DNA of 60,965 bases, from the NCBI GenBank assembly GCA_016188575.1, contig JACPHN010000196.1, positions 1-60,965 of the forward strand. Reading direction: 5' to 3'. The notes under the pieces are model-generated. The model made no database searches. It had not been told where the DNA came from and saw only the letters and a list, made by a program, of their open reading frames with translations. Origin of the DNA: Candidatus Schekmanbacteria bacterium (GTDB lineage: Bacteria; CSSED10-310; JACPHN01). This document shows positions 8,926 to 24,936 of this stretch, piece by piece. Numbering within the stretch: position 1 is the stretch's first letter; each line of letters begins with the position of its first letter. The position numbers and the translations under genes are program-made.

Positions 8926-9062
8926 GGCCGAATGTGCTTTACACCTGAGGCCGCCACGCAGGGGCGCGATTTATCGCGGCCGGTCGTCGCGGCCGGTAAT
9001 CCGGGCGGATCATTGCCCGATGATCCCCGGCCCGGCATTGGGGCGCGATGAATCGCGCCCCT
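8926..9062. repeat. Dispersed hairpin-rich repeat, copy 1 (inverted relative to 25164-25292)
   Basis: The reverse complement of this segment aligns over its whole length with 25164-25292 with only scattered differences, for example in ACCTGAGGCCGC, CGGTCGTCGCGGCCGGTAAT and GGGGCGCGATGAATCGCGCC. It contains near-palindromes built on GGCGCGAT/ATCGCGCC. It has no coding content and looks like a small intergenic REP/MITE-like element. Confidence 0.75.
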
Positions 9063-9233
9063 CCGCGCCTCCCGCACCTGCCCACGAATCTGTCCGGCTG
9101 CGCGTCGGCGGGCGCGGGCGGCAGGGAAGCCTGGCACCGGAACCATGGCGCCCGCACCAGGCTGGGGCTCCCCCGCGGCCGGTTTTCGCGGTAATCGCCG
9201 CACAACGGCGCGTTCTCGACGTCGCACACCAGG

Positions 9234-9249
9234 TGGCACGCATCGTGCT
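9234..9249 (+). promoter_or_regulatory. Sigma-54 (-24/-12) promoter of the pseudokinase/ATPase/sensor locus
   Basis: TGGCACGCATCGTGCT matches the TGGCACG-N4-TTGCW consensus except for one base (G for the first T of the -12 element). The invariant GG and GC have the correct spacing. Transcription would start near 9258, just before the AGGAGG ribosome site (9263-9268) of the ATG at 9278. The preceding gene encodes a GAFTGA-containing activator. Confidence 0.6.
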
Positions 9250-9277
9250 TACTGCGCCAGACAGGAGGCTCGCAACG

Positions 9278-10177
9278 ATGTTCCCCAACTACGAAATTCT
9301 GGAAATGATCGCGGAGACCCCGCGAGCGGCCGTCTACAAGGCGTACCACCGGAAGAACCCCCAGCGGCTGCTCGTCCTCAAGGTGCTCAAAGCCATCGGC
9401 CTCTCGGAGTATGAGCAGACGCAGATCCGGCAGAGAATCGAGCACCTTCGGGTCCTTGACGACCCGGCGCTGCTCGTGCCGGTCGCCCTCGGAGTGCGCG
9501 ACGGGGTCTGCTTCCTGACACAGGACTACTTCGAGGGGATCACGCTCGACCATCTCCGGGAGGCTGCGGCGCGCCTGCGCATGAGCGACTTTCTGACGAT
9601 GGCATGCCGGATCGCCCGGGCGCTGGGCAGGGCGCACGAAGCGGGGATCATCCATGGCGGCATCAAACCGTCGAACATCCTCGTCGACCTCGCCACGCTC
9701 GAGGTTCGGCTCGTCGATTTCATCGGCGCCGTCGATGTCCGGGACCTCAGCCACTTCATCTACGACCACAACTTCGTGCGGGGCACTCTCGCCTATACAT
9801 CTCCCGAGCAGACCGGCAGAATCAATCATCGACTGGCCTTCTCGTCGGATCTCTACTCCCTCGGGATCGTGTTCTACGAGCTGCTGACCGGGAAACTGCC
9901 CTACCCCTCGGACGACCCGCTCGAGGTGATCCACTCCCACCTCGCCCGGGAGGCGCGGCGAGTCCACGAGCTCGAGCCCAGCGTCCCGGCAGCGCTCTCC
10001 GCAATCGTGGGAAAGCTCATGCTCAAGCAGCCCGAGAAGCGGTATCAGACAGCGGGTGGGCTGCTCCCCGACCTGACGCGGTGCCGGGACGAGTTCTCGG
10101 CGATCGGCACGGTGCGGGAGTTTCCCTGGAAAAGAGTGTGGGTCTTCAGACCGTCACGTTCGTCTCCAAGATGGTAG
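9278..10177 (+). CDS. Protein kinase-like domain protein, predicted pseudokinase
   Basis: The 299-residue product has a Ser/Thr kinase fold: N-lobe with VLK (Lys35), C-lobe motif IIHGGIKPSNILVD, SPEQ after the activation loop, and DLYSLGIVFYELLTGKLPY. The HRD catalytic Asp is replaced by Gly (HGG, residues 126-128) and DFG reads DFI, although its metal-binding Asp148 remains. Phosphotransfer is therefore doubtful. AGGAGG precedes ATG 9278. In relatives this domain is fused to the AAA ATPase that follows. Here the frame ends at a TAG (10175-10177), and the ATPase continues in another frame through ATGGTAG. One base added to the CCC run near 10130 would join them, so this is either a natural split, a frameshift mutation or a sequencing error. 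Confidence 0.7.
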   Translation: MFPNYEILEMIAETPRAAVYKAYHRKNPQRLLVLKVLKAIGLSEYEQTQIRQRIEHLRVLDDPALLVPVALGVRDGVCFLTQDYFEGITLDHLREAAARLRMSDFLTMACRIARALGRAHEAGIIHGGIKPSNILVDLATLEVRLVDFIGAVDVRDLSHFIYDHNFVRGTLAYTSPEQTGRINHRLAFSSDLYSLGIVFYELLTGKLPYPSDDPLEVIHSHLAREARRVHELEPSVPAALSAIVGKLMLKQPEKRYQTAGGLLPDLTRCRDEFSAIGTVREFPWKRVWVFRPSRSSPRW

Positions 10178-13100
10178 GCCGCGAACGGGAATCCGAGCTC
10201 ATTCTCTCGGAGTACGAAACAGTCGCGGCCGGCGAGTTCCGGTCGCTTTTCATCTCAGGGCTTTCAGGGATTGGAAAGACGCGCCTGATCCAGGAGCTGC
10301 ACCGGCCAATCGTGAGTCATCGGGGCTACTTTGCATCGGGCAAATTCGACGTCTACCAGCGAAACATCCCGTATAGCTCGCTCATTCAGGCGCTGAGGGG
10401 CCTGGTGCGGACCTTGCTCACGGAGAGCGACGAGCAAGTCGCGCTCTGGAAGAGCCGCATCCTGGCGGCGATCGGCAAGCACGGAAAGGTGCTCACGGAC
10501 GTGATTTCGGAGCTCGCCGTGCTGATCGGGCCGCAGCCGAGCGTCAAGGCGCTGCCGCCCGTGGAGTCCCTGAACCGCTTCCGCGACACCTTCGACCGCT
10601 TCGTCGCCTGCCTGGCGAGCGCGGAGAACCCGCTGACGCTGTTCATCGACGACCTTCAGTGGTGCGACGCCGCGTCCTTCGACTTCTTGACCAACATCCT
10701 CGCGAACCACGAGTCCCATCCGCATCTTTTCCTCCTCGGCGCGTACCGGCACAACGAAGTCGACTCGAGCCACCCCCTCAGGAAGCTGGTTCGGAACGCC
10801 GAGGGGAAAGGCTGGCCGCGCGCGCAGATCCGCCTCGCGCCGCTCGCGCCGCAGCATTGCCATGACATGGTCGCCTACATCCTCGACTCGCCCCGGTCGC
10901 AGACCCGGGCGCTGGCGGGATTCGTGGCCGAGCTCAGCGAGGGGAACCCCCTCTACGTGAGCGAGTGCCTGTCCTATCTCCACAACGAGGGTCTCCTCTA
11001 CCGAGACGACGATGGCCAGTGGCGGTGGGACCTCGCCAAGATCCGGCGATCGGACATGCCGAGGACAGTGGTGGCGCTGTTCGGCGCCAAAATTCGGAAG
11101 CTGCCGGCGGAGCTCGTGTCCCTGCTCGAATACTGCGCGTGCATGGGAAACACGTTTTCGCCATCCGAGCTTGCCACTCTTGGGGGGATGACGCTCGCGG
11201 CGGTGTTCACCTGGCTGAAACCGGCACTCGCAAAGGGGCTGCTCGTCGAAGCGAGAGGCCAGCTCCAGTTCATCCACGATCGGGTGCAGGAGGCGGTGCT
11301 AGGGTCGATCGCGCCCGTCGAGCGGCGGCGAATCCACCGGCAGGTGGGCGAGCATCTGCTCTCGGCCATTCCGTTGGGCAGAGATCTCGAGCAGGTCGAC
11401 AATCTGTTCACCATCGTCTCTCACCTGAACCTGGGGAGGTCCGAGGAGCTGACGCCGGAGGAGGCGCGCTTTCTGTCCGCTCTCAACTACCACGCCGGCA
11501 ACAAGGCGCTCGGCTCGCTCGCGGTGGCGGCGGCCAACGACTACTTCGGTCTCGCGCGGGAGCTGCTGGTTGAGGACTGCTGGCAGGACCCGCACTACGA
11601 GCGCACCTTCAGGATCTTCATCCAGGCGATCGAGACCGCCAATCGGGGCCTGGCCTACTTCGGCAAGGCGATCCCGGCGAGCCCCGCAGAGGCGAACGAG
11701 CGGCGCGCGCTCCTCATGGAGCAGATCGCGGCCCAGGACCTCGACGTTCGCGAGGCAATCCTCGGCATGCCCTTCACTACCGACCGCAGGAGCCGCATCG
11801 AGCTCGCCTTCTACAGCGAGCTTATCCCGGACCTTTACATGTCCGGTCTCGTCCCCCAGCTCTACCTCTCCGCCGCGCAGTCGACGGCGCATTGCCTCGC
11901 CGGCGGCATGGACGAGAGCGTCATCTACTCCTTCAGCATCATGGGCCTCCAGCTCGGCGAGCGCGACGAGTTCGCACAGGCGTTCCTGTACGAGGACCTC
12001 GCCCGGGATCTCTCGGCTCGGCACCCGAACACCTTCGGAGCCACCCGCGGAATGAACGGTATCGTCTGGTGTAACGCGCACTCGCGAAGCCACCCGCGGG
12101 AAATCGTCGACTACTGCCTGAAGTCGATCCAGTGCGGCAAGAACTGCGGCGACCTGTATAACGCCGGGCTCTCGTACGGGCCCCTGATGTGGAATCTCCA
12201 GGTCCAGGGCGCGGATCTCGAGGTCATCGAGGACTGCGCGCGAGAATGCCTCCAGTTTTCCGCGAAATACGACCTCTCCTTCTCCGTGGGTCTCGCGGAG
12301 GCGATGCAGGCGGGATGGGTCGGGCCAATGAAGGGAAGCCCGCCACAGCTTCCCATGGAGGACCGGCTGCGGGATTGGGAGCGGAACAACCACGTGGCAT
12401 CCGCGGGTAGCTATTTCGTCCATCGGGCGCTCGCGCATTACTATCTCGGAGAGCATGAAGCAGCCGAGCGCCACCTCGAAGAAGTTCGACGCTATCTGAC
12501 GGGCCTGACCGACAATGTTCTGAAGCGGCAGTGGCACGTCTTCCTGGTCCTCAACGAGCTCGAGCTTCACGACCGGCGCGGCGGTGAGCAGGGCGAGCTG
12601 ATGGCGACGATCCGGCCGCTGCTCGAGCGAATCGAGACCTGGGCGGAGCTCGGGCCGCTCCTCCGCCCGTACCTCGCCTTCGTCCACGCCGAGATCGAGC
12701 GGGTCACGGGGAACGCCCGGGAGGCGACGGCTCGCTTCCTGGATGCGATTCACACCGCGCACGAGCAGGGGTACACCTTGCTCGAGGGTCACCTCAACGA
12801 GTGCCTGGGCAGGCACCTCGAGCGGGCGGGCCGGTCCTCGCCGTGGGTCTATTTCCGGGAGGCGGCGCGCCTGTATAGAAAATGCCGGGCGGACCGGAAG
12901 GAGGTTCGCCTCGTCGAGGAGTATCCCGAGCACTTCGAGGCCGAGGCGCCCCGGCGGCCGCGCAGTGACGCCGAGACCACAGCCGCAGCCGCGGCCGGGA
13001 CCACGGCCGCGCGTCCCGACCTGGACCTCAGCTACTTCGAGCGGATGCGCGCCGCGGTCACGTCGGACGAGCCGCCGCAGGTCCGGCTCGAACAGGTCAT

Positions 13101-13560
13101 GAGCGCCGTGATCGCGGGCTCGGGTGCAGAGCGCGGCCATCTCTTCCTGGACGAGCCCGGCGGCTCCACGCGGCCCTGGGACGACGGCCCGGAGGCCTGT
13201 CGGGCGATCGTTCGGTACGTCCAGCGGACCGGGGAGCGGATCATTCTGTCCGACGCGTCACGCGAGGGACCGTTCCGCGACAACCCGGAGGTGCAGTTCC
13301 GGCGGGCCCGCTCCGTGCTGTGTCTGCCGCTCTGCGAGCGAGGGCGAGCGAGGGGGGTCCTGTACCTCGAGAACCGCCTGGCGGCCGGGGTCTTCACGCC
13401 GGAGCGGACGAGGACCGCGGAGCTGCTCGCCTCGTGGGCGACGCTGGCCATGGAGAACGCGCGGCTCGCCGACCGGCTCACAATGGTCGATGACCGGACC
13501 GGGCGGCCGGCGGACATCCAGGCTTATGGCACCACCGGGTCCGAATGGGCGGGTCGATAG
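10171..13560 (+). CDS. AAA/NACHT-like signalling ATPase with TPR-like middle and C-terminal GAF domain
   Basis: From ATG 10171 the product has 1129 residues. It begins with MVGRERE, typical of the predicted-ATPase domain of kinase-ATPase-sensor fusions. Walker A is SGLSGIGKTRL and Walker B is LTLFIDDLQWCD. A long helical TPR-like region occupies roughly residues 400-930, then an Ala/Thr linker and a GAF domain (about 960-1110). Unlike the classical trifunctional proteins it has no histidine kinase module of its own; the next gene supplies one. The ATG overlaps the pseudokinase stop codon, with no ribosome site of its own, so translation depends on coupling or on a restored fusion. The first part of the same frame (9604-10170) is an out-of-frame shadow of the kinase and is not included. 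Confidence 0.75.
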   Translation: MVGRERESELILSEYETVAAGEFRSLFISGLSGIGKTRLIQELHRPIVSHRGYFASGKFDVYQRNIPYSSLIQALRGLVRTLLTESDEQVALWKSRILAAIGKHGKVLTDVISELAVLIGPQPSVKALPPVESLNRFRDTFDRFVACLASAENPLTLFIDDLQWCDAASFDFLTNILANHESHPHLFLLGAYRHNEVDSSHPLRKLVRNAEGKGWPRAQIRLAPLAPQHCHDMVAYILDSPRSQTRALAGFVAELSEGNPLYVSECLSYLHNEGLLYRDDDGQWRWDLAKIRRSDMPRTVVALFGAKIRKLPAELVSLLEYCACMGNTFSPSELATLGGMTLAAVFTWLKPALAKGLLVEARGQLQFIHDRVQEAVLGSIAPVERRRIHRQVGEHLLSAIPLGRDLEQVDNLFTIVSHLNLGRSEELTPEEARFLSALNYHAGNKALGSLAVAAANDYFGLARELLVEDCWQDPHYERTFRIFIQAIETANRGLAYFGKAIPASPAEANERRALLMEQIAAQDLDVREAILGMPFTTDRRSRIELAFYSELIPDLYMSGLVPQLYLSAAQSTAHCLAGGMDESVIYSFSIMGLQLGERDEFAQAFLYEDLARDLSARHPNTFGATRGMNGIVWCNAHSRSHPREIVDYCLKSIQCGKNCGDLYNAGLSYGPLMWNLQVQGADLEVIEDCARECLQFSAKYDLSFSVGLAEAMQAGWVGPMKGSPPQLPMEDRLRDWERNNHVASAGSYFVHRALAHYYLGEHEAAERHLEEVRRYLTGLTDNVLKRQWHVFLVLNELELHDRRGGEQGELMATIRPLLERIETWAELGPLLRPYLAFVHAEIERVTGNAREATARFLDAIHTAHEQGYTLLEGHLNECLGRHLERAGRSSPWVYFREAARLYRKCRADRKEVRLVEEYPEHFEAEAPRRPRSDAETTAAAAAGTTAARPDLDLSYFERMRAAVTSDEPPQVRLEQVMSAVIAGSGAERGHLFLDEPGGSTRPWDDGPEACRAIVRYVQRTGERIILSDASREGPFRDNPEVQFRRARSVLCLPLCERGRARGVLYLENRLAAGVFTPERTRTAELLASWATLAMENARLADRLTMVDDRTGRPADIQAYGTTGSEWAGR

Positions 13561-13571
13561 AGGAGCGAGCA

Positions 13572-16500
13572 ATGGAAACAGCAGCGGCAGCGGTAAAGAT
13601 GAAGCTCTTCGACGCGGCGATCGTCGGCAACGCGCCCGAGGCCATGGAGCTCATGGCGAATATCCTCGAATCCTCGACGGAGTACTCGATCATAGGCAAG
13701 GATCTCGACGGCAAGATCCTCCTCTGGAACGAAGGCGCCCGCCGGCTCTACGGGTACGAACCGGAAGAGGTGGTGGGCCGCGCGAGCTCATCGATCCTCC
13801 ACACGGAGGAGGACGTGCAGGCGGGGAAACCCGCCGAGATCCTCGAGGCGGCGCTGGCGCACGGCAAGTGGGAGGGCACGATCCAACGTCGCCGCAAGGA
13901 CGGCGAGGTGTTCACGGCGCGCGTGGTCATCACCCCGCGGCGCGGCCGCCACGGGCAGGCCATCGGGTATCTCCTGATTTCCAAGGACATCTCGGATGAG
14001 ATCCGGCTCACGGACCAGCTCAGATCGACCCAGCTCTACACGCGATCGCTCATCGAGTCGAACATCGACGCGCTGATGACCACCGACCCGCTCGGAATCA
14101 TCAGCGATGTCAACCGGCAAATGGTGACGCTGACGGGATACACGCGCGAGGAGCTCATCGGGTCGCGGTTCAAGAGCTACTTCACCGATCCGGGCCGAGC
14201 CGAGGATGGCATCAAGCAGGTCCTGCGCGAGGGCCAGGTGACGAACTACGAGCTGACGGCGCTCGCGAAGACCGGCAGGATGACCGTCGTTTCCTACAAT
14301 GCGTCCACTTTCCGCGATGCGGATGGCCGGCTCCAGGGGGTCTTCGCGGCGGCCCGTGACATCACCGAGCAAAAGGAGCTCGAACGGCAGCTCCGGGAGT
14401 CCGAGGCCTACAACCGGGGCCTGATCGAAGCCTCCGTGGATGGGCTGGTCACCGTCAACCCGATGCTCGACATCACAGATGTCAACGACACGATGTGCCG
14501 GATGGCCGGGTATTCCCGGCAGGAGCTGATCGGGAAGCGGTTTCCCAGCTACTTCACGGATCCGAAGCGCGCGGCTGCAGGGGTGCGGCTCACGCTCGAC
14601 CGCGGGGCGGTCACGAGCTACCAGCTCACCCTCCTGGGTGCCGACGGCCGGGAGCGGGTGGTCGCCCTGAACGCCGCGATCTTCCGGGACGAGGCGGGCG
14701 CGGTGCGCGGGGTTTTTGCCAGCGCGCGCGACTCCACCGAGCAGACCCGCCTCCAGGAGCAGCTCGCGGAAGAGCGCGCCTACGTGCGGGGGCTCTTCGA
14801 GGCCAGCGTCGACGGTCTGGTTACCGTCGACCAGGCCATGGTGATCACGGACGTCAACGAGACCATGTGTCGCATGGCCGGCCGACGGCGCAGTCAGCTC
14901 ATTGGATCCTCGTTCCCCACCTACTTCGCCGAGTCAGACCGCGCGGCCGAAGGGGTGCTGCTCACCTTCCGGCAGCGGGCGGTCACCAACTACGTGCTGA
15001 CGCTTCAGGCGGCGGACAGGCGGCAGTTCCCGGTGTCCTTCAATGCCGCGGTCTTCACGGACGCCGCGGGCAAGGTGCGGGGGATCTTCGCGAGCGCCCG
15101 CGACATCACCGCGCAGAAAGGACTCGAGTCTCAGCTCCAGGCCTCCGAGCTTTACACCCGGACGCTGTTCGAATCGAACATCGACGCGCTCATGACCACC
15201 GACCCGCTCGGGGTGGTCACCGACGTCAACGAGCAGATGGAGCTCCTCACGGGCCGAGCTCGAGAGGAGCTCGTCGGCACCCCCTTCAAGACCTTCTTCA
15301 CCGACCCCGGCCGGGCCGAGGATGGTATCGAGCTCGTACTGCGGGAGGGAAAGGTCCAGAACTACGAGCTCACGGCGCGCACCAAAGAGGGCAAGGAGAC
15401 GGTGATCTCCTATAACGCGACCACCTTCGCCGACCGCGACGGGAAACTCCGGGGCGTGTTCGCCGCAGCGCGCGACATCACCGAGCAAAAGGAGCTCGAG
15501 CGGCAGCTTCGGGAATCGCAGGCATACAACCGGGGGCTCATCGAGGCCTCCGTAGACGGACTGGTCACCGTCGACCCGGAAGGCTTCATCAGCGACGTCA
15601 ACGATCGTATCTGCCAGCTCTCGGGCTATACCCGGGCGGAGCTCCTCGGCGCACCTTTCGCGGATTACTTCACAGACGCAGAACGCGCCCGCGCCGGTGT
15701 GAGGAAGACCTTCGAACAGGGGGTGGTTACCGACTACGCGCTCACCTTGGTGACCCGCACCCGCCGACTACTCCAGGTGTCGTTCAACGCCTCGGTCTTC
15801 CGCGATCCATCCGGCAACGTTCGCGGGATCTTCGCCTCGGCCCGCGACATCACCGACCGGCTTCGCCTGGAGGAGCAGCTCCGCGAGCAACAGACCTACC
15901 TGCGCGGTCTCATCGAGTCCTCAGTCGACGGCCTGGTCACGGTCGATCCGGAGGGGTACATCACCGACGTCAATGAGCAGCTTTGCCGGATGACGCGCTA
16001 CAGCCGCGAGGCGCTCGTCGGATCGGCTTTCAAGAGCTATTTCACCGAGCCCGGCCTCGCGGAGGCCGGAGTCCGGCTGACGCTCGCGGAGGGGGCCGTC
16101 ACCAATTACGAGCTCGTGCTGCGGACCAAGACCGGGCCCAAGGCGACGGTATCGTTCAACGCCTCGGTGTTCCGCGACGCCGACGGTCTGGTGCAGGGCA
16201 TCTTCGCGAGCGCCCGGGACATCAGCGAGCAAGCCCGTCTCCAGGCACAGCTCGTCGACCAGCAGGCTTACAACCGGTCGCTGATCGAGGCAAGCGCGGA
16301 CGCGCTCTTCGCGATCGCGCCCGACGGCGTGGTCATCGACGTCAACGAGGAGGCCACGCGGCTCACGGGGTATTCGCGAAAGCACCTGGTCAACTCGCGG
16401 TTCCCGATTTACTTCACGGAGCCGGAGCAGGCGTACGCCGGCGTGCAGCATACGCTGGCGGCGGGCCGCGTGCTCGCCTACGAGCTCATGCTGATTACCC

Positions 16501-18605
16501 GGCATGGGCGCCGCATCCCGGTCAGCTTGAACGCGGGGGTGTTCTCCGACGCAGCGGGGAAGCCGCTCGGCGTCCTCGCGGCCGCCCGCGATATCGCGGA
16601 ACAGAAAAATCTCACCCAGCAGCTTCGCGACCAGCAAACCTACTCCCGGTCGCTCATCGAGTCGAATATCGACGCGTTGATGACGACCGACCCGCTCGGC
16701 ACGATCACGGACGTCAACGAGCAGATGTGTAGGGTGACGGGATCGAGCCGCGCAGCGCTCGTGGGGACCCCGTTCCGGGACTACGTAACCGACCCGGCGC
16801 GGGCCGAGGACGGCATCCGCCGGGTGCTGGCGGACGGCAAGGTGATCAACTACGAGCTCACGATCCGGTCTCGCGAGGGCAAGGAGACGGTGGTCTCGTA
16901 CAACGCAACCACCTTCACGGGGGCCGACGGCAAGCTCCATGGCGTGTTCGCGGCGGCGCGGGACGTCTCCGCACAGAAAGCGCTCGAGTACGAGATCAAC
17001 CGGCGCAGCCAGCAGCTCACGGAGGCGACGACGTTTCTTCACAACATTCTGGAAAGCTCGACGGAGTACTCGATCATCGCCAAGGACCTCGAGGGGACGA
17101 TCCTGACCTGGAACGAGGGCGCCCGGCGAACCTACGGCTACTCCGCCGAGGAGATGGTCGGCAAGATCAACTCTCGGGTCCTCCACACCCCGGAGGACAT
17201 CGAATCCGGGCGCGCGGATGCGGCGCTCGCCACCGCACTCTACACGGGCAAGTTCGAGGGTGAGCTGCTGCGGGTGCGCAAGAATGGGCAGCGGTTCAGC
17301 GCCCACGTCGCCATCACGCTCCGGCGCGACGCCACGGGGACACCGATCGGCTACGTCCTCATCTCGAAGGACATCTCGGCACAGAAGGTGCTCGAGGAGC
17401 AGCTTCGGCGGAAGAACGACGAGCTCGAGACCCAGAACCGGCGCATCGAGCAGACCAACCGGATGAAGAGCGAGTTCCTGGCGAACATGTCCCACGAGCT
17501 CCGCACCCCGCTCAACGGCATCATCGGCTTCGCCGAGCTCATCCATGCCGGCAAGGCCGGGCCGGTTTCGGAGATGCACCACGAATATCTGGGTGACATC
17601 CTGACGAGCGCCCGACACCTCCTGCAGCTCGTCAACGACGTCCTCGACCTCGCCAAGGTAGAGTCGGGCAAGATCGAGCTCCGAGCCGAGCCTCTCCAGC
17701 TCGACCATCTGGTGGGGGAAGTGCGGGACGTCCTGCGCGCCATTGCCAGCAAGAAGCGGATTCGGCTGGAGGCCGCCGTCGACCCGGCGGTTCGAGAGGT
17801 GGTGGGCGACCCGTCGAGAATCAAGCAGATCCTGTACAACTTCCTCTCGAACGCGTTGAAGTTCACCGCGGAGGAGGGGCGGGTGACCGTCCGATGCCTT
17901 CCCGAGGGGGCGGCGAGCTTCCGGCTCGAGGTCCAGGACACGGGGATCGGAATCCATCCGGACGATATGGGGCGCCTGTTCGTCGAGTTTCAGCAGCTCG
18001 ACGGGAGCAGTGCGAAACGGTTCCAGGGGACGGGGCTGGGCCTGGCGCTCACCCGGCGCCTCGCCGAGGCCTGTGGCGGGAGGGTAGAGGTCCAGAGCCA
18101 GGTCGGCGTGGGCAGCACCTTCGCCGCGGTGCTGCCGCGCCGGCTGGGCGAGCAGCAGGAAGAGGCCGGCGCACTGGTGGTCGCGGCCCAGCGGGGCGGC
18201 CCGGCCATCCTCGTCGTGGAGGACGATCGCGCAGAGCGCGAGTGGCTGGTGCGGGCCCTCGACGACGCCGGCTACGGCGTCGTGGCGGTGGGATCCGGCA
18301 AGGAGGCGCTGCAGGTCGCCGCAGACTGGCATTTCGCGGCCATCACGCTGGACCTCCTGCTCCCGGACATGAGTGGTTGGGAGCTGCTCGCGGCAGTGCG
18401 GGCGACCGCCACGCACCACGACCTCGCAGCCGTGGTGGTGACGGTGGCCGCCGACGCGAAACCGGCGCCGGGCCACGCCATCGCCGGCATCCTGAGGAAG
18501 CCGGCGACGGCCGAGGAACTGATCGCCGCCCTGTGCCGCGCCGGCGTACCGGCACCGGCGACCGTCCTGTCCCAGCAACAGAAGGAGGAGTCCGTTGGCC
18601 GGTGA
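13572..18605 (+). CDS. Hybrid sensor histidine kinase with ten PAS domains
   Basis: 1677 residues with no membrane segments, so probably cytoplasmic. PAS1 and PAS10 resemble each other (both start NILESSTEYSII) and flank eight further PAS domains, each exactly 124 residues. HisKA follows, with His1308 in ANMSHELRTPLNG, then HATPase_c (DTGIGIHPDD, GTGLGLALT) and a C-terminal receiver (Asp1594 in LDLLLPDMSG). Kinase and receiver active sites are complete. ATG 13572 is preferred over 13545 because AGGAG lies 6 nt upstream of it, and it leaves an 11-nt gap to the ATPase gene. The PAS array may bind several small ligands or act as a long signalling rod. The neighbouring pseudokinase/ATPase-GAF proteins are likely partners. 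Confidence 0.9.
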   Translation: METAAAAVKMKLFDAAIVGNAPEAMELMANILESSTEYSIIGKDLDGKILLWNEGARRLYGYEPEEVVGRASSSILHTEEDVQAGKPAEILEAALAHGKWEGTIQRRRKDGEVFTARVVITPRRGRHGQAIGYLLISKDISDEIRLTDQLRSTQLYTRSLIESNIDALMTTDPLGIISDVNRQMVTLTGYTREELIGSRFKSYFTDPGRAEDGIKQVLREGQVTNYELTALAKTGRMTVVSYNASTFRDADGRLQGVFAAARDITEQKELERQLRESEAYNRGLIEASVDGLVTVNPMLDITDVNDTMCRMAGYSRQELIGKRFPSYFTDPKRAAAGVRLTLDRGAVTSYQLTLLGADGRERVVALNAAIFRDEAGAVRGVFASARDSTEQTRLQEQLAEERAYVRGLFEASVDGLVTVDQAMVITDVNETMCRMAGRRRSQLIGSSFPTYFAESDRAAEGVLLTFRQRAVTNYVLTLQAADRRQFPVSFNAAVFTDAAGKVRGIFASARDITAQKGLESQLQASELYTRTLFESNIDALMTTDPLGVVTDVNEQMELLTGRAREELVGTPFKTFFTDPGRAEDGIELVLREGKVQNYELTARTKEGKETVISYNATTFADRDGKLRGVFAAARDITEQKELERQLRESQAYNRGLIEASVDGLVTVDPEGFISDVNDRICQLSGYTRAELLGAPFADYFTDAERARAGVRKTFEQGVVTDYALTLVTRTRRLLQVSFNASVFRDPSGNVRGIFASARDITDRLRLEEQLREQQTYLRGLIESSVDGLVTVDPEGYITDVNEQLCRMTRYSREALVGSAFKSYFTEPGLAEAGVRLTLAEGAVTNYELVLRTKTGPKATVSFNASVFRDADGLVQGIFASARDISEQARLQAQLVDQQAYNRSLIEASADALFAIAPDGVVIDVNEEATRLTGYSRKHLVNSRFPIYFTEPEQAYAGVQHTLAAGRVLAYELMLITRHGRRIPVSLNAGVFSDAAGKPLGVLAAARDIAEQKNLTQQLRDQQTYSRSLIESNIDALMTTDPLGTITDVNEQMCRVTGSSRAALVGTPFRDYVTDPARAEDGIRRVLADGKVINYELTIRSREGKETVVSYNATTFTGADGKLHGVFAAARDVSAQKALEYEINRRSQQLTEATTFLHNILESSTEYSIIAKDLEGTILTWNEGARRTYGYSAEEMVGKINSRVLHTPEDIESGRADAALATALYTGKFEGELLRVRKNGQRFSAHVAITLRRDATGTPIGYVLISKDISAQKVLEEQLRRKNDELETQNRRIEQTNRMKSEFLANMSHELRTPLNGIIGFAELIHAGKAGPVSEMHHEYLGDILTSARHLLQLVNDVLDLAKVESGKIELRAEPLQLDHLVGEVRDVLRAIASKKRIRLEAAVDPAVREVVGDPSRIKQILYNFLSNALKFTAEEGRVTVRCLPEGAASFRLEVQDTGIGIHPDDMGRLFVEFQQLDGSSAKRFQGTGLGLALTRRLAEACGGRVEVQSQVGVGSTFAAVLPRRLGEQQEEAGALVVAAQRGGPAILVVEDDRAEREWLVRALDDAGYGVVAVGSGKEALQVAADWHFAAITLDLLLPDMSGWELLAAVRATATHHDLAAVVVTVAADAKPAPGHAIAGILRKPATAEELIAALCRAGVPAPATVLSQQQKEESVGR
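14046..17021 (+). repeat. Eight tandem 372-bp units encoding PAS2-PAS9
   Basis: Starting at codon TCG 14046 (SLIESNIDAL), every PAS unit begins exactly 372 bp after the previous one. I checked unit starts at 14046, 14418 and 16650, and the protein alignment shows no indels in any unit. Units alternate between SNIDALMTTDPLG-type (2, 5, 9) and ASVDGLVTV-type domains (3, 4, 6; SSVDGLVTV in 7). This suggests duplication of blocks rather than single units. Confidence 0.85.
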
Positions 18606-18858
18606 ACCCATCCTGGTCGTCGAGCACCTCCCGATCAACCGCAAGCTCATGCTGGTGCTGACTCGCCGGATGAAGGCTGCGCCCGAGACGCGTAACCTCT
18701 GCGTCATCGCCGTGACCTCGTACGCCATGAACGGCGACGAGCTGAAGGCGCGACAGGCGGGGTGCGACGGATACATCACCAAGCCCGTGGATGCGCGGGC
18801 CCTGTTGGAGTTAGCTGCCAGGTCCCTCGCCCGGGGGAGGCAGGAAGGACAATCATGA
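18595..18858 (+). CDS. Stub receiver protein lacking the phospho-acceptor region
   Basis: 87 residues. It starts like a CheY receiver (ILVVEHLPINRKLMLVL) and ends like one (RNLCVIAVTSYAMNGDELKARQ, then GCDGYITKPVD). About 35-40 residues in the middle, including the strand that carries the phosphorylated Asp, are missing. The second acidic residue is also His (VVEHL, normally VVEDN). The reading frame is intact across the deletion. It probably starts at TTG 18595, with AAGGAGG a few bases upstream, inside the end of the histidine kinase gene. Its stop overlaps the next ATG (ATGA). It could be a non-phosphorylatable adaptor or a decayed gene held only by translational coupling. Confidence 0.6.
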   Translation: MAGEPILVVEHLPINRKLMLVLTRRMKAAPETRNLCVIAVTSYAMNGDELKARQAGCDGYITKPVDARALLELAARSLARGRQEGQS

Positions 18859-23913: not shown

Positions 23914-24936
23914 TCAGGCTTCCGTCTCTTGCTCCTCAGCAGGTCCGGCTGCCCCCGCGGCCTGCTCCCGGTCGATCTCCGCGGCCAGACGCCGCAGCTC
24001 CTTGGCGCCCAGCTTTCGCGCGATCGCCTGGTGACCCGTTTCCGCAATTACCCTGTCCAGGCCGACTTTCTCGATGACCCGGCCCAGACCAACCTCCTCG
24101 ATGACCTGGTCCAGACCGACCTCCTTGATGACCTGGTCCAGACCGACCTCCTTGATGACCTGGTCCAGACCGACCTCCTTGATGACCTGGTCCAGGCCGA
24201 CCTCCTTGATGACCTGGCCCAGGCCGACCTCCTTGATGACCTGGCCCAGGCCGACTTCGCTTATGACCCGCTTGATCCCCAGGTCTTCGACGGCGCCGCG
24301 AATGTCCAGTTGCGTGACCGCCATTTCGTCTCTCCTTTCTTCCAGGTATCGCCGCACCAATGCGCGGCGAAACACCGCGACCCGGGCCAGGTAGGCGCCC
24401 GCCCACGCCGGCGGCGCGCTCTGCAGCAGCCGCCACGCCCGCGCCTCGCTGCCGAAATACAGCACCCACGCCACGTGCTCCTCCCGGTCGTCCAGCGCGT
24501 CCACGCCCCAGACGTAGATGTTGCACAGCCGACCCGGCAGCACGTACAGCCCGGCTACCGCCGCCACCGGCGTCAGCTCCCCGCCGGTGGTCAGCTCTTC
24601 AGCTACCGCCGCCCCCACCATCAGCCCCGAGACGTGCTCCCCTGCCCACATTCGTCCGCCCTCCTCCGCCTCACGTTCCAGCAGAAGCTGCACCCGGGCC
24701 GCGAACCTCAACAGGTCCAATCGCGACAGGTGCGACCCCGGAGCCTTGTTCTCGACAGCCAGCAGCCCCGCCGGCAAGAATCGGTCGAGCGGCGCAAAGC
24801 TCACCCGCCCCCAGATCGCCAGATCCACGTGCAGCGCGCCACCCGCGACCCGGCGCTTGCTCTCCAGCGCGCCCGCACCGCGACCGAACCAGCGGATCCA
24901 CGCTTTCTCTTGCAGGTCGTCGGATTCGAATGCCAT
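23914..24936 (-). CDS. Rpn/PD-(D/E)XK-like protein with an 11-residue tandem repeat
   Basis: 340 residues from ATG 24936 (MAFESDDLQEKAW; weak AGGGAA ribosome site). The N-terminal 200 residues contain LLAVENKAPGSHLSRLDLLRF and VWGVDALDDREEHVAWVLYF, compatible with a PD-(D/E)XK-type fold (the ENK could be the E-x-K of such a site). No family match is certain. Residues about 215-290 are nine or so copies of an 11-residue repeat (VGLDQVIKEVG-type), encoded by a 33-bp minisatellite. The tail is Ala/Glu-rich. The fragment behind it (25123-25164) matches the tail of the Rpn-type gene at the window start, so this locus belongs to the same family of mobile or expanded genes. Confidence 0.55.
   Translation of the reverse strand: MAFESDDLQEKAWIRWFGRGAGALESKRRVAGGALHVDLAIWGRVSFAPLDRFLPAGLLAVENKAPGSHLSRLDLLRFAARVQLLLEREAEEGGRMWAGEHVSGLMVGAAVAEELTTGGELTPVAAVAGLYVLPGRLCNIYVWGVDALDDREEHVAWVLYFGSEARAWRLLQSAPPAWAGAYLARVAVFRRALVRRYLEERRDEMAVTQLDIRGAVEDLGIKRVISEVGLGQVIKEVGLGQVIKEVGLDQVIKEVGLDQVIKEVGLDQVIKEVGLDQVIEEVGLGRVIEKVGLDRVIAETGHQAIARKLGAKELRRLAAEIDREQAAGAAGPAEEQETEA
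24060..24290 (-). repeat. 33-bp coding minisatellite
   Basis: Consecutive copies of a 33-bp unit (core GACCTGGTCCAGACCGACCT on the plus strand) run through the 3' half of the Rpn-like gene. Each copy encodes 11 residues such as IKEVGLDQVIK. The four central copies are almost identical and the outer ones diverge (LGQ, EEVGLGR, EKVGLDR). There are no spacers, so it is not a CRISPR array. Confidence 0.9.

Follow-up and report, generated by a model that had tools for sequence, protein, structure and literature searches.

A shortened and mosaic nine-PAS array in a hybrid histidine kinase gene of Candidatus Schekmanbacteria

The window, by which we mean the whole stretch of 60,965 nucleotides analysed here, carries a single open reading frame for a hybrid histidine kinase of 1686 residues. 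Pfam analysis of the protein indicated ten PAS stretches (PAS_9, PAS or PAS_4), followed by HisKA (E-value 3.3e-22), HATPase_c (1.8e-26) and Response_reg (1e-13), which is the composition of a hybrid sensor histidine kinase. The PAS folds, detected as Pfam stretches and visible in AlphaFold models, are located N-terminal to HisKA as in tandem-PAS sensor kinases. The features of the locus are as follows, each PAS unit being given with its position in the canonical nine-unit array of related proteins, as assigned by identity comparison and unit tree.

13545..18605, + strand: hybrid histidine kinase gene, 1686 aa in one ORF (PAS_N, eight PAS units of 124 aa, PAS_C, HisKA, HATPase_c, receiver)
13647..14045, + strand: PAS_N (PAS1 of the earlier note), found family-wide with 73% mean identity
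14046..14417, + strand: PAS unit 1, canonical position 1, A type
14418..14789, + strand: PAS unit 2, canonical position 3, B type; canonical position 2 is missing before this unit
14790..15161, + strand: PAS unit 3, canonical position 4, B type
15162..15533, + strand: PAS unit 4, canonical position 5, A type
15534..15905, + strand: PAS unit 5, canonical position 6, B type
15906..16277, + strand: PAS unit 6, canonical position 7, B type
16278..16649, + strand: PAS unit 7, canonical position 8, divergent B' type
16650..17021, + strand: PAS unit 8, canonical position 9, A type; most closely related to unit 9 of the paralogue L009
17022..17400, + strand: PAS_C (PAS10 of the earlier note), PAS_N-like, preceded by a 28-residue linker, with Phe in place of the PAS_N Trp
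17463..17669, + strand: HisKA (Pfam), with the phospho-acceptor His 41 residues past the last PAS Asp
17805..18140, + strand: HATPase_c (Pfam)
18207..18533, + strand: receiver domain fused to the kinase (Pfam)
18595..18858, + strand: response-regulator gene downstream, in frame, TTG start, with about 40 residues missing from its middle

Related response-regulator genes adjoin the 3' end of the kinase gene in most relatives, and are full length in most of them. In the window, the adjoining regulator has lost the segment with the phospho-acceptor Asp and its acidic pair is changed (VVEH versus VVED/VDD), while the kinase carries a receiver of its own.

When the window was cut every 372 bp from position 14046, eight in-frame PAS units of 124 residues were obtained without any indel, and a direct-repeat search gave seven successive offsets of 372 bp. 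The exact register of eight PAS domains between 14046 and 17021, which had been described in the earlier note, is thus real. The same applies to two further observations made there: sequence differences come in blocks, and PAS_N and PAS_C are closer to each other than to the eight units (73% nucleotide identity over 156 nt, 13659/17043). In the present comparison, window units 1, 4 and 8 (canonical positions 1, 5 and 9) make up one subtype. Ungapped pairwise identity between the units was 40-75% at the amino acid level and 54-76% at the nucleotide level. The register has been kept, although the unit sequences are old and diverged.

To place this gene among its relatives, 84,980 species genomes were scanned with exact 8-mers from the query, half of them derived from the array. 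The scan gave 26 proteins with a complete array from about ten phyla (Pseudomonadota, Myxococcota, Chloroflexota, Acidobacteriota, Bacteroidota, Planctomycetota, Nitrospirota, Actinomycetota and Methylomirabilota), together with one fragment (L035) and one frame-broken copy from Polaromonas (L038). Nine units, almost always of 124 residues, were present in all 26 complete homologues, one of which, L025, bears an additional tenth PAS. The same order of nine units, with three more PAS domains after them, was also found in L054, a protein recovered by a pattern-free search that used no array peptides, and more divergent arrays exist (L009 and L055).

The family is rare and patchily distributed. 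Among the genomes of its own phylum the array was detected in one of eight, the window's own genome, and pattern-free searches of other groups gave members in 1/300, 1/195, 1/297, 1/396 and 3/95 genomes, the known seed genome being counted each time; in all these counts the top few candidates were scored per genome. The idea that the family is common among relatives was rejected on these counts. As to possible vehicles, no plasmid match was found in PLSDB at E 1e-100, and the array was absent from the viral contigs searched. The SURF_52 genome carries two nine-PAS kinases (L013 and L018) on different contigs, 96% identical in the array. The Polaromonas sp. P2-4 copy (L038, 9335-14554), in a chromosome listed as 'complete', is spread over several frames with most breaks at the ARDIT motif of successive units, and these breaks look like systematic sequencing error.

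Each position of the array has its own orthologues. In 4945 of 5400 comparisons, the best match of a unit in another locus was the unit at the same position. In the unit tree, positions 2, 3, 4, 6, 7 and 8 each formed an exact clade of 26-28 members across all species; position 9 formed a clade except for the window and L025 units, and positions 1 and 5 intermixed. Identity was 0.71-0.79 within a position and mostly 0.42-0.63 between positions; positions 1, 5 and 9 are 0.70-0.77 identical to one another. The order of subtypes is A-BBB-A-BBB'-A, with A at positions 1, 5 and 9, B at the others, and position 8 divergent. Identity between positions was no higher within species than between species, and the main family thus gives no hint that homogenisation is still going on.

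The eight units of the window correspond to canonical positions 1, 3, 4, 5, 6, 7, 8 and 9. Position 2 is gone as one exact block of 124 residues, and the deletion can be placed within roughly the first 15 codons of window unit 2, a stretch in which positions 2 and 3 are indistinguishable. The window array derives from a nine-unit one by in-register loss of position 2, and with eight units in place of the fixed nine it represents a derived, shortened relative, which retains the 124-residue period and the 21-residue linker between PAS domains. Duplication inside the array can be seen in the A type shared by positions 1, 5 and 9 and in weak affinities of 2 with 6 and of 3 with 7; it is older than the spread of the family. 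In a deeper tree of 112 units built with FastTree, position 3 joined position 4 (0.89) and position 2 weakly joined position 6 (0.24); an ancient duplication of a four-unit block inside the array is possible from this branching.

The window gene is a mosaic. A paralogue in the same genome, L009 on contig C237, likewise contains PAS_N, PAS_C, HisKA, HATPase and receivers, with A-type units at its positions 1, 5 and 9, but has nine units where the window has eight, and in its B units identity to the canonical positions has fallen to about 0.5-0.6. Over the stretch from PAS_N to canonical unit 8, the window protein was mostly 70-95% identical to proteins of other phyla (lower near the deletion) versus 45-72% to L009. 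From there on, across canonical unit 9, PAS_C, HisKA and HATPase, it was closest to L009 (70-87%); its kinase region was about 25-53% identical to that of most relatives, while L036 and L037 share its kinase class. The breakpoint is at canonical units 8/9, around 16600-16680, and the sequence comparison indicates that the last unit, PAS_C and the kinase derive from a paralogue-like gene. PAS_C was present in the window protein and in L009, and absent from the other 26 aligned proteins.

These findings bear on how the array arose. In the earlier note, expansion by block duplication inside an older PAS-PAS pair had been suggested. Taken as a recent expansion of one unit to eight in this lineage, inside a PAS1-PAS10 pair, this would fit the uniform register and the likeness of the two flanking domains, but nine position-matched orthologous units are found in other phyla, the array units of one species do not cluster together, and the window has lost a unit. 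Nor is PAS_C a remnant of an ancestral pair, because it is lacking in 26 of the 27 aligned proteins, is shared with L009, and arrived with the C-terminal part. Recent expansion in this lineage is thus highly improbable, and the picture of a local repeat expansion is replaced by that of an old array that loses or gains domains by whole heptads only. An assembly artefact, in which repeats were collapsed or expanded to a wrong copy number, could be suspected from a draft of 275 contigs and from eight units in the window against nine in relatives. Such an artefact is extremely improbable: exact repeats between units reach 26 nt at most, which makes collapse or expansion unlikely, what is absent is a particular diverged position, and the reading frame runs unbroken through 1686 codons.

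Strict selection on domain length, as proposed in the earlier note for a continuous helical signalling rod, is borne out by the relatives. Among 27 homologous arrays, 209 of 216 unit-to-unit distances were exactly 124 residues (no such distance can be measured for the final unit of an array, which was left out). Six of the deviations are internal indels in two loops, at columns 76-79 and 91-95, located before and between beta strands. The seventh, in L025, is a linker shorter by exactly 7 residues, at the point where a PAS of a different type is attached. Linkers were counted from the DIT-motif Asp to the start of the following PAS. They are 21 residues long in every array, but 14 ahead of the added PAS in L025 and L054, and 28 ahead of PAS_C in the window and L009. 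The phospho-acceptor His comes 27, 34 or 41 residues after the last PAS Asp, all 6 mod 7. Linkers therefore vary by whole heptads only, as in heptad-phased kinases, in agreement with the proposed constraint on helical register. AlphaFold models showed a continuous helix of 21-25 residues between successive PAS domains; in the monomer model (pTM 0.24) confidence was low where each linker enters the next PAS, and the inter-domain geometry is not fixed by the model.

Another multi-PAS protein of the same genome (L010, 6154-8574) has 14-residue, that is, two-heptad, linkers with irregular spacing. Its PAS type is that of the extra tenth PAS of L025 and resembles the extra domains of L054. As L010 also uses 14-residue linkers, heptad quantisation is general for tandem PAS proteins, and heptad dependence is established for the linkers of LOV- and PAS-kinases (PMC6798134). 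What is special in the nine-PAS family is the fixed number and order of units, not the heptad spacing. The occurrence of this array, almost without change, in scattered bacteria of about ten phyla suggests that length and order are important for the action of the protein.

In the cross-phylum set, which was partly selected by array peptides in an exact 8-mer scan that favours array-similar members and thereby inflates array similarity to an unknown degree, identity was 0.77 for the array (lowest pair 0.69), 0.73 for PAS_N, 0.72 for HisKA and 0.51 for HATPase. Identity at four-fold sites was 0.417 versus 0.361 expected from composition. Because this is near the expectation, with synonymous sites almost saturated, the likeness of the arrays reflects mainly purifying selection and not recent copying; a recent sweep of near-identical DNA across phyla was rejected on the same ground. 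Two classes of kinase core can be distinguished. Identity of the arrays was 0.769 within and 0.766 between the classes, while kinase identity was 0.62 within and 0.43 between them. The average kinase identity is thus lowered by swapping of kinase cores, and within one kinase class the array is still ahead (0.77 vs 0.62). The array behaves like a standard module, with different kinase cores swapped beneath it. The array tree mixes phyla, with Nitrospirota inside Myxococcota, Acidobacteriota with Aromatoleum, and Planctomycetota with Polyangiaceae. This mixing and the patchy distribution speak for horizontal transfer of the array gene, with the reservation that bins may be contaminated and that the tree alone is no proof.

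PAS_N differs from the array units in its possible ligand determinants. Its Trp is invariant in 26 of 26 proteins and aligns with the FAD-binding Trp of NifL (PAS1, 2gj3, E 1.6e-7) and with the flavin Trp of MmoS (3ewk), and is thus located at F-alpha as in the FAD-PAS domains of NifL, MmoS and Aer. Trp at F-alpha is a determinant of FAD-PAS (PMC10468136), and His at F-alpha is one of heme-PAS. The array units contain no conserved His and 2 Trp in 29,264 residues, fitting neither the heme-His nor the FAD-Trp determinant, and unlike the redox kinases NifL and MmoS they lack the flavin Trp. PAS_N perhaps binds flavin, as its alignment suggests, but its W-x-G motif also occurs in flavin-free PAS domains. 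The array units share near-invariant residues. A Cys at unit column 27 is conserved at positions 2, 3, 4, 6 and 7, but a Cys at this site is frequent in PAS consensus sequences and was therefore set aside as a redox site. A PDB fold search with a two-unit model gave generic tandem PAS structures (DosP, LOV-HK, FixL and MmoS) and no ligand clue.

Among known proteins, the closest in architecture are the multi-PAS sensor histidine kinases (PMC10468136), which are likewise soluble, carry many tandem PAS_9/PAS_4-type domains before HisKA-HATPase and in some cases a receiver, and reach up to 19 PAS domains in cyanobacteria. The present family differs from them in having nine units in all complete main-family relatives except the window, with positional orthology over about ten phyla and the order A-BBB-A-BBB'-A. 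Regularly spaced tandem PAS domains were noted in a review (PMC6798134), and YF1 and other LOV- and PAS-histidine kinases share the PAS-to-DHp helical linker that varies by whole heptads (PMC6798134); those proteins contain one or two PAS domains against nine or more here, and the LOV Cys motif is absent here. In the literature searched, no description was found of nine- or eleven-PAS kinases, or of a rule of fixed count and order.

We consider it somewhat more probable than not that the family forms a soluble rod of coiled-coil PAS domains relaying a signal from the distal PAS_N to an exchangeable kinase; the window carries a shortened mosaic member. The sensory half of the soluble kinase is a fixed, ordered array of PAS_N and nine 124-residue units on three-heptad helical linkers. 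Two chains would most likely pair lengthwise and build an unbroken coiled-coil rod. At its outer tip, PAS_N may change its state, perhaps through a flavin or redox signal, with the array as modulator. The linkers would carry this change as a twist or register shift to the DHp helices, which could then decide between kinase and phosphatase activity on the response regulator of the adjoining gene. A bolder extension is more tentative, and we hold it as doubtful: the array may be a portable, standardised sensor rod of nine PAS domains, fixed in length and order and with every fourth position of a separate subtype, which moves between phyla and kinase cores with hardly any change, its length and order being the selected function.

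Two other functions of the array have to be weighed against the relay. If each PAS position had its own ligand or cofactor, the order would represent nine sensors summed along the protein. That the positions are individually conserved and distinct agrees with such an integrator of multiple inputs, as does the frequent binding of ligands by PAS domains, conserved cavity residues being known in many PAS clusters (PMC10468136). We nevertheless regard it as rather unlikely, given the near-invariant residues common to the units, the lack of conserved His and near-absence of Trp, and the fact that positions 1, 5 and 9 are almost one domain. A scaffold or ruler that carries no signal, but sets the distance of the kinase, docks partners or forms filaments, would be expected to keep its count and length over large divergence, as observed, and could be conserved more than a kinase core that is exchanged. 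A passive spacer would not need a heptad phase that continues into the DHp helix and changes by whole heptads only, and the window copy tolerates the loss of a unit; this possibility appears quite unlikely. The relay along a coiled-coil rod is thus the reading that we retain.

PAS input domains usually diverge faster than their kinases, and proteins differ freely in how many PAS domains they have. In this family no part is more conserved than the input array, which has a set count and order and under which kinases are exchanged. The natural series of nine units, eight in the window and nine plus three in L054 offers a test of the distance and the strictness with which a coiled-coil rod of PAS domains carries a signal, and of whether the number of repeats matters.

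Two minor features were observed elsewhere in the window. Directly upstream of the kinase gene, at 9020-13560, a large Ser/Thr kinase-AAA_16-GAF protein is split between two frames near 10140, by either a real frameshift or a sequencing error; a related protein of 1500 residues near the L018 array is intact. At 24055-24268, a 27-bp tandem repeat was found in 7.9 copies with 92% matches.
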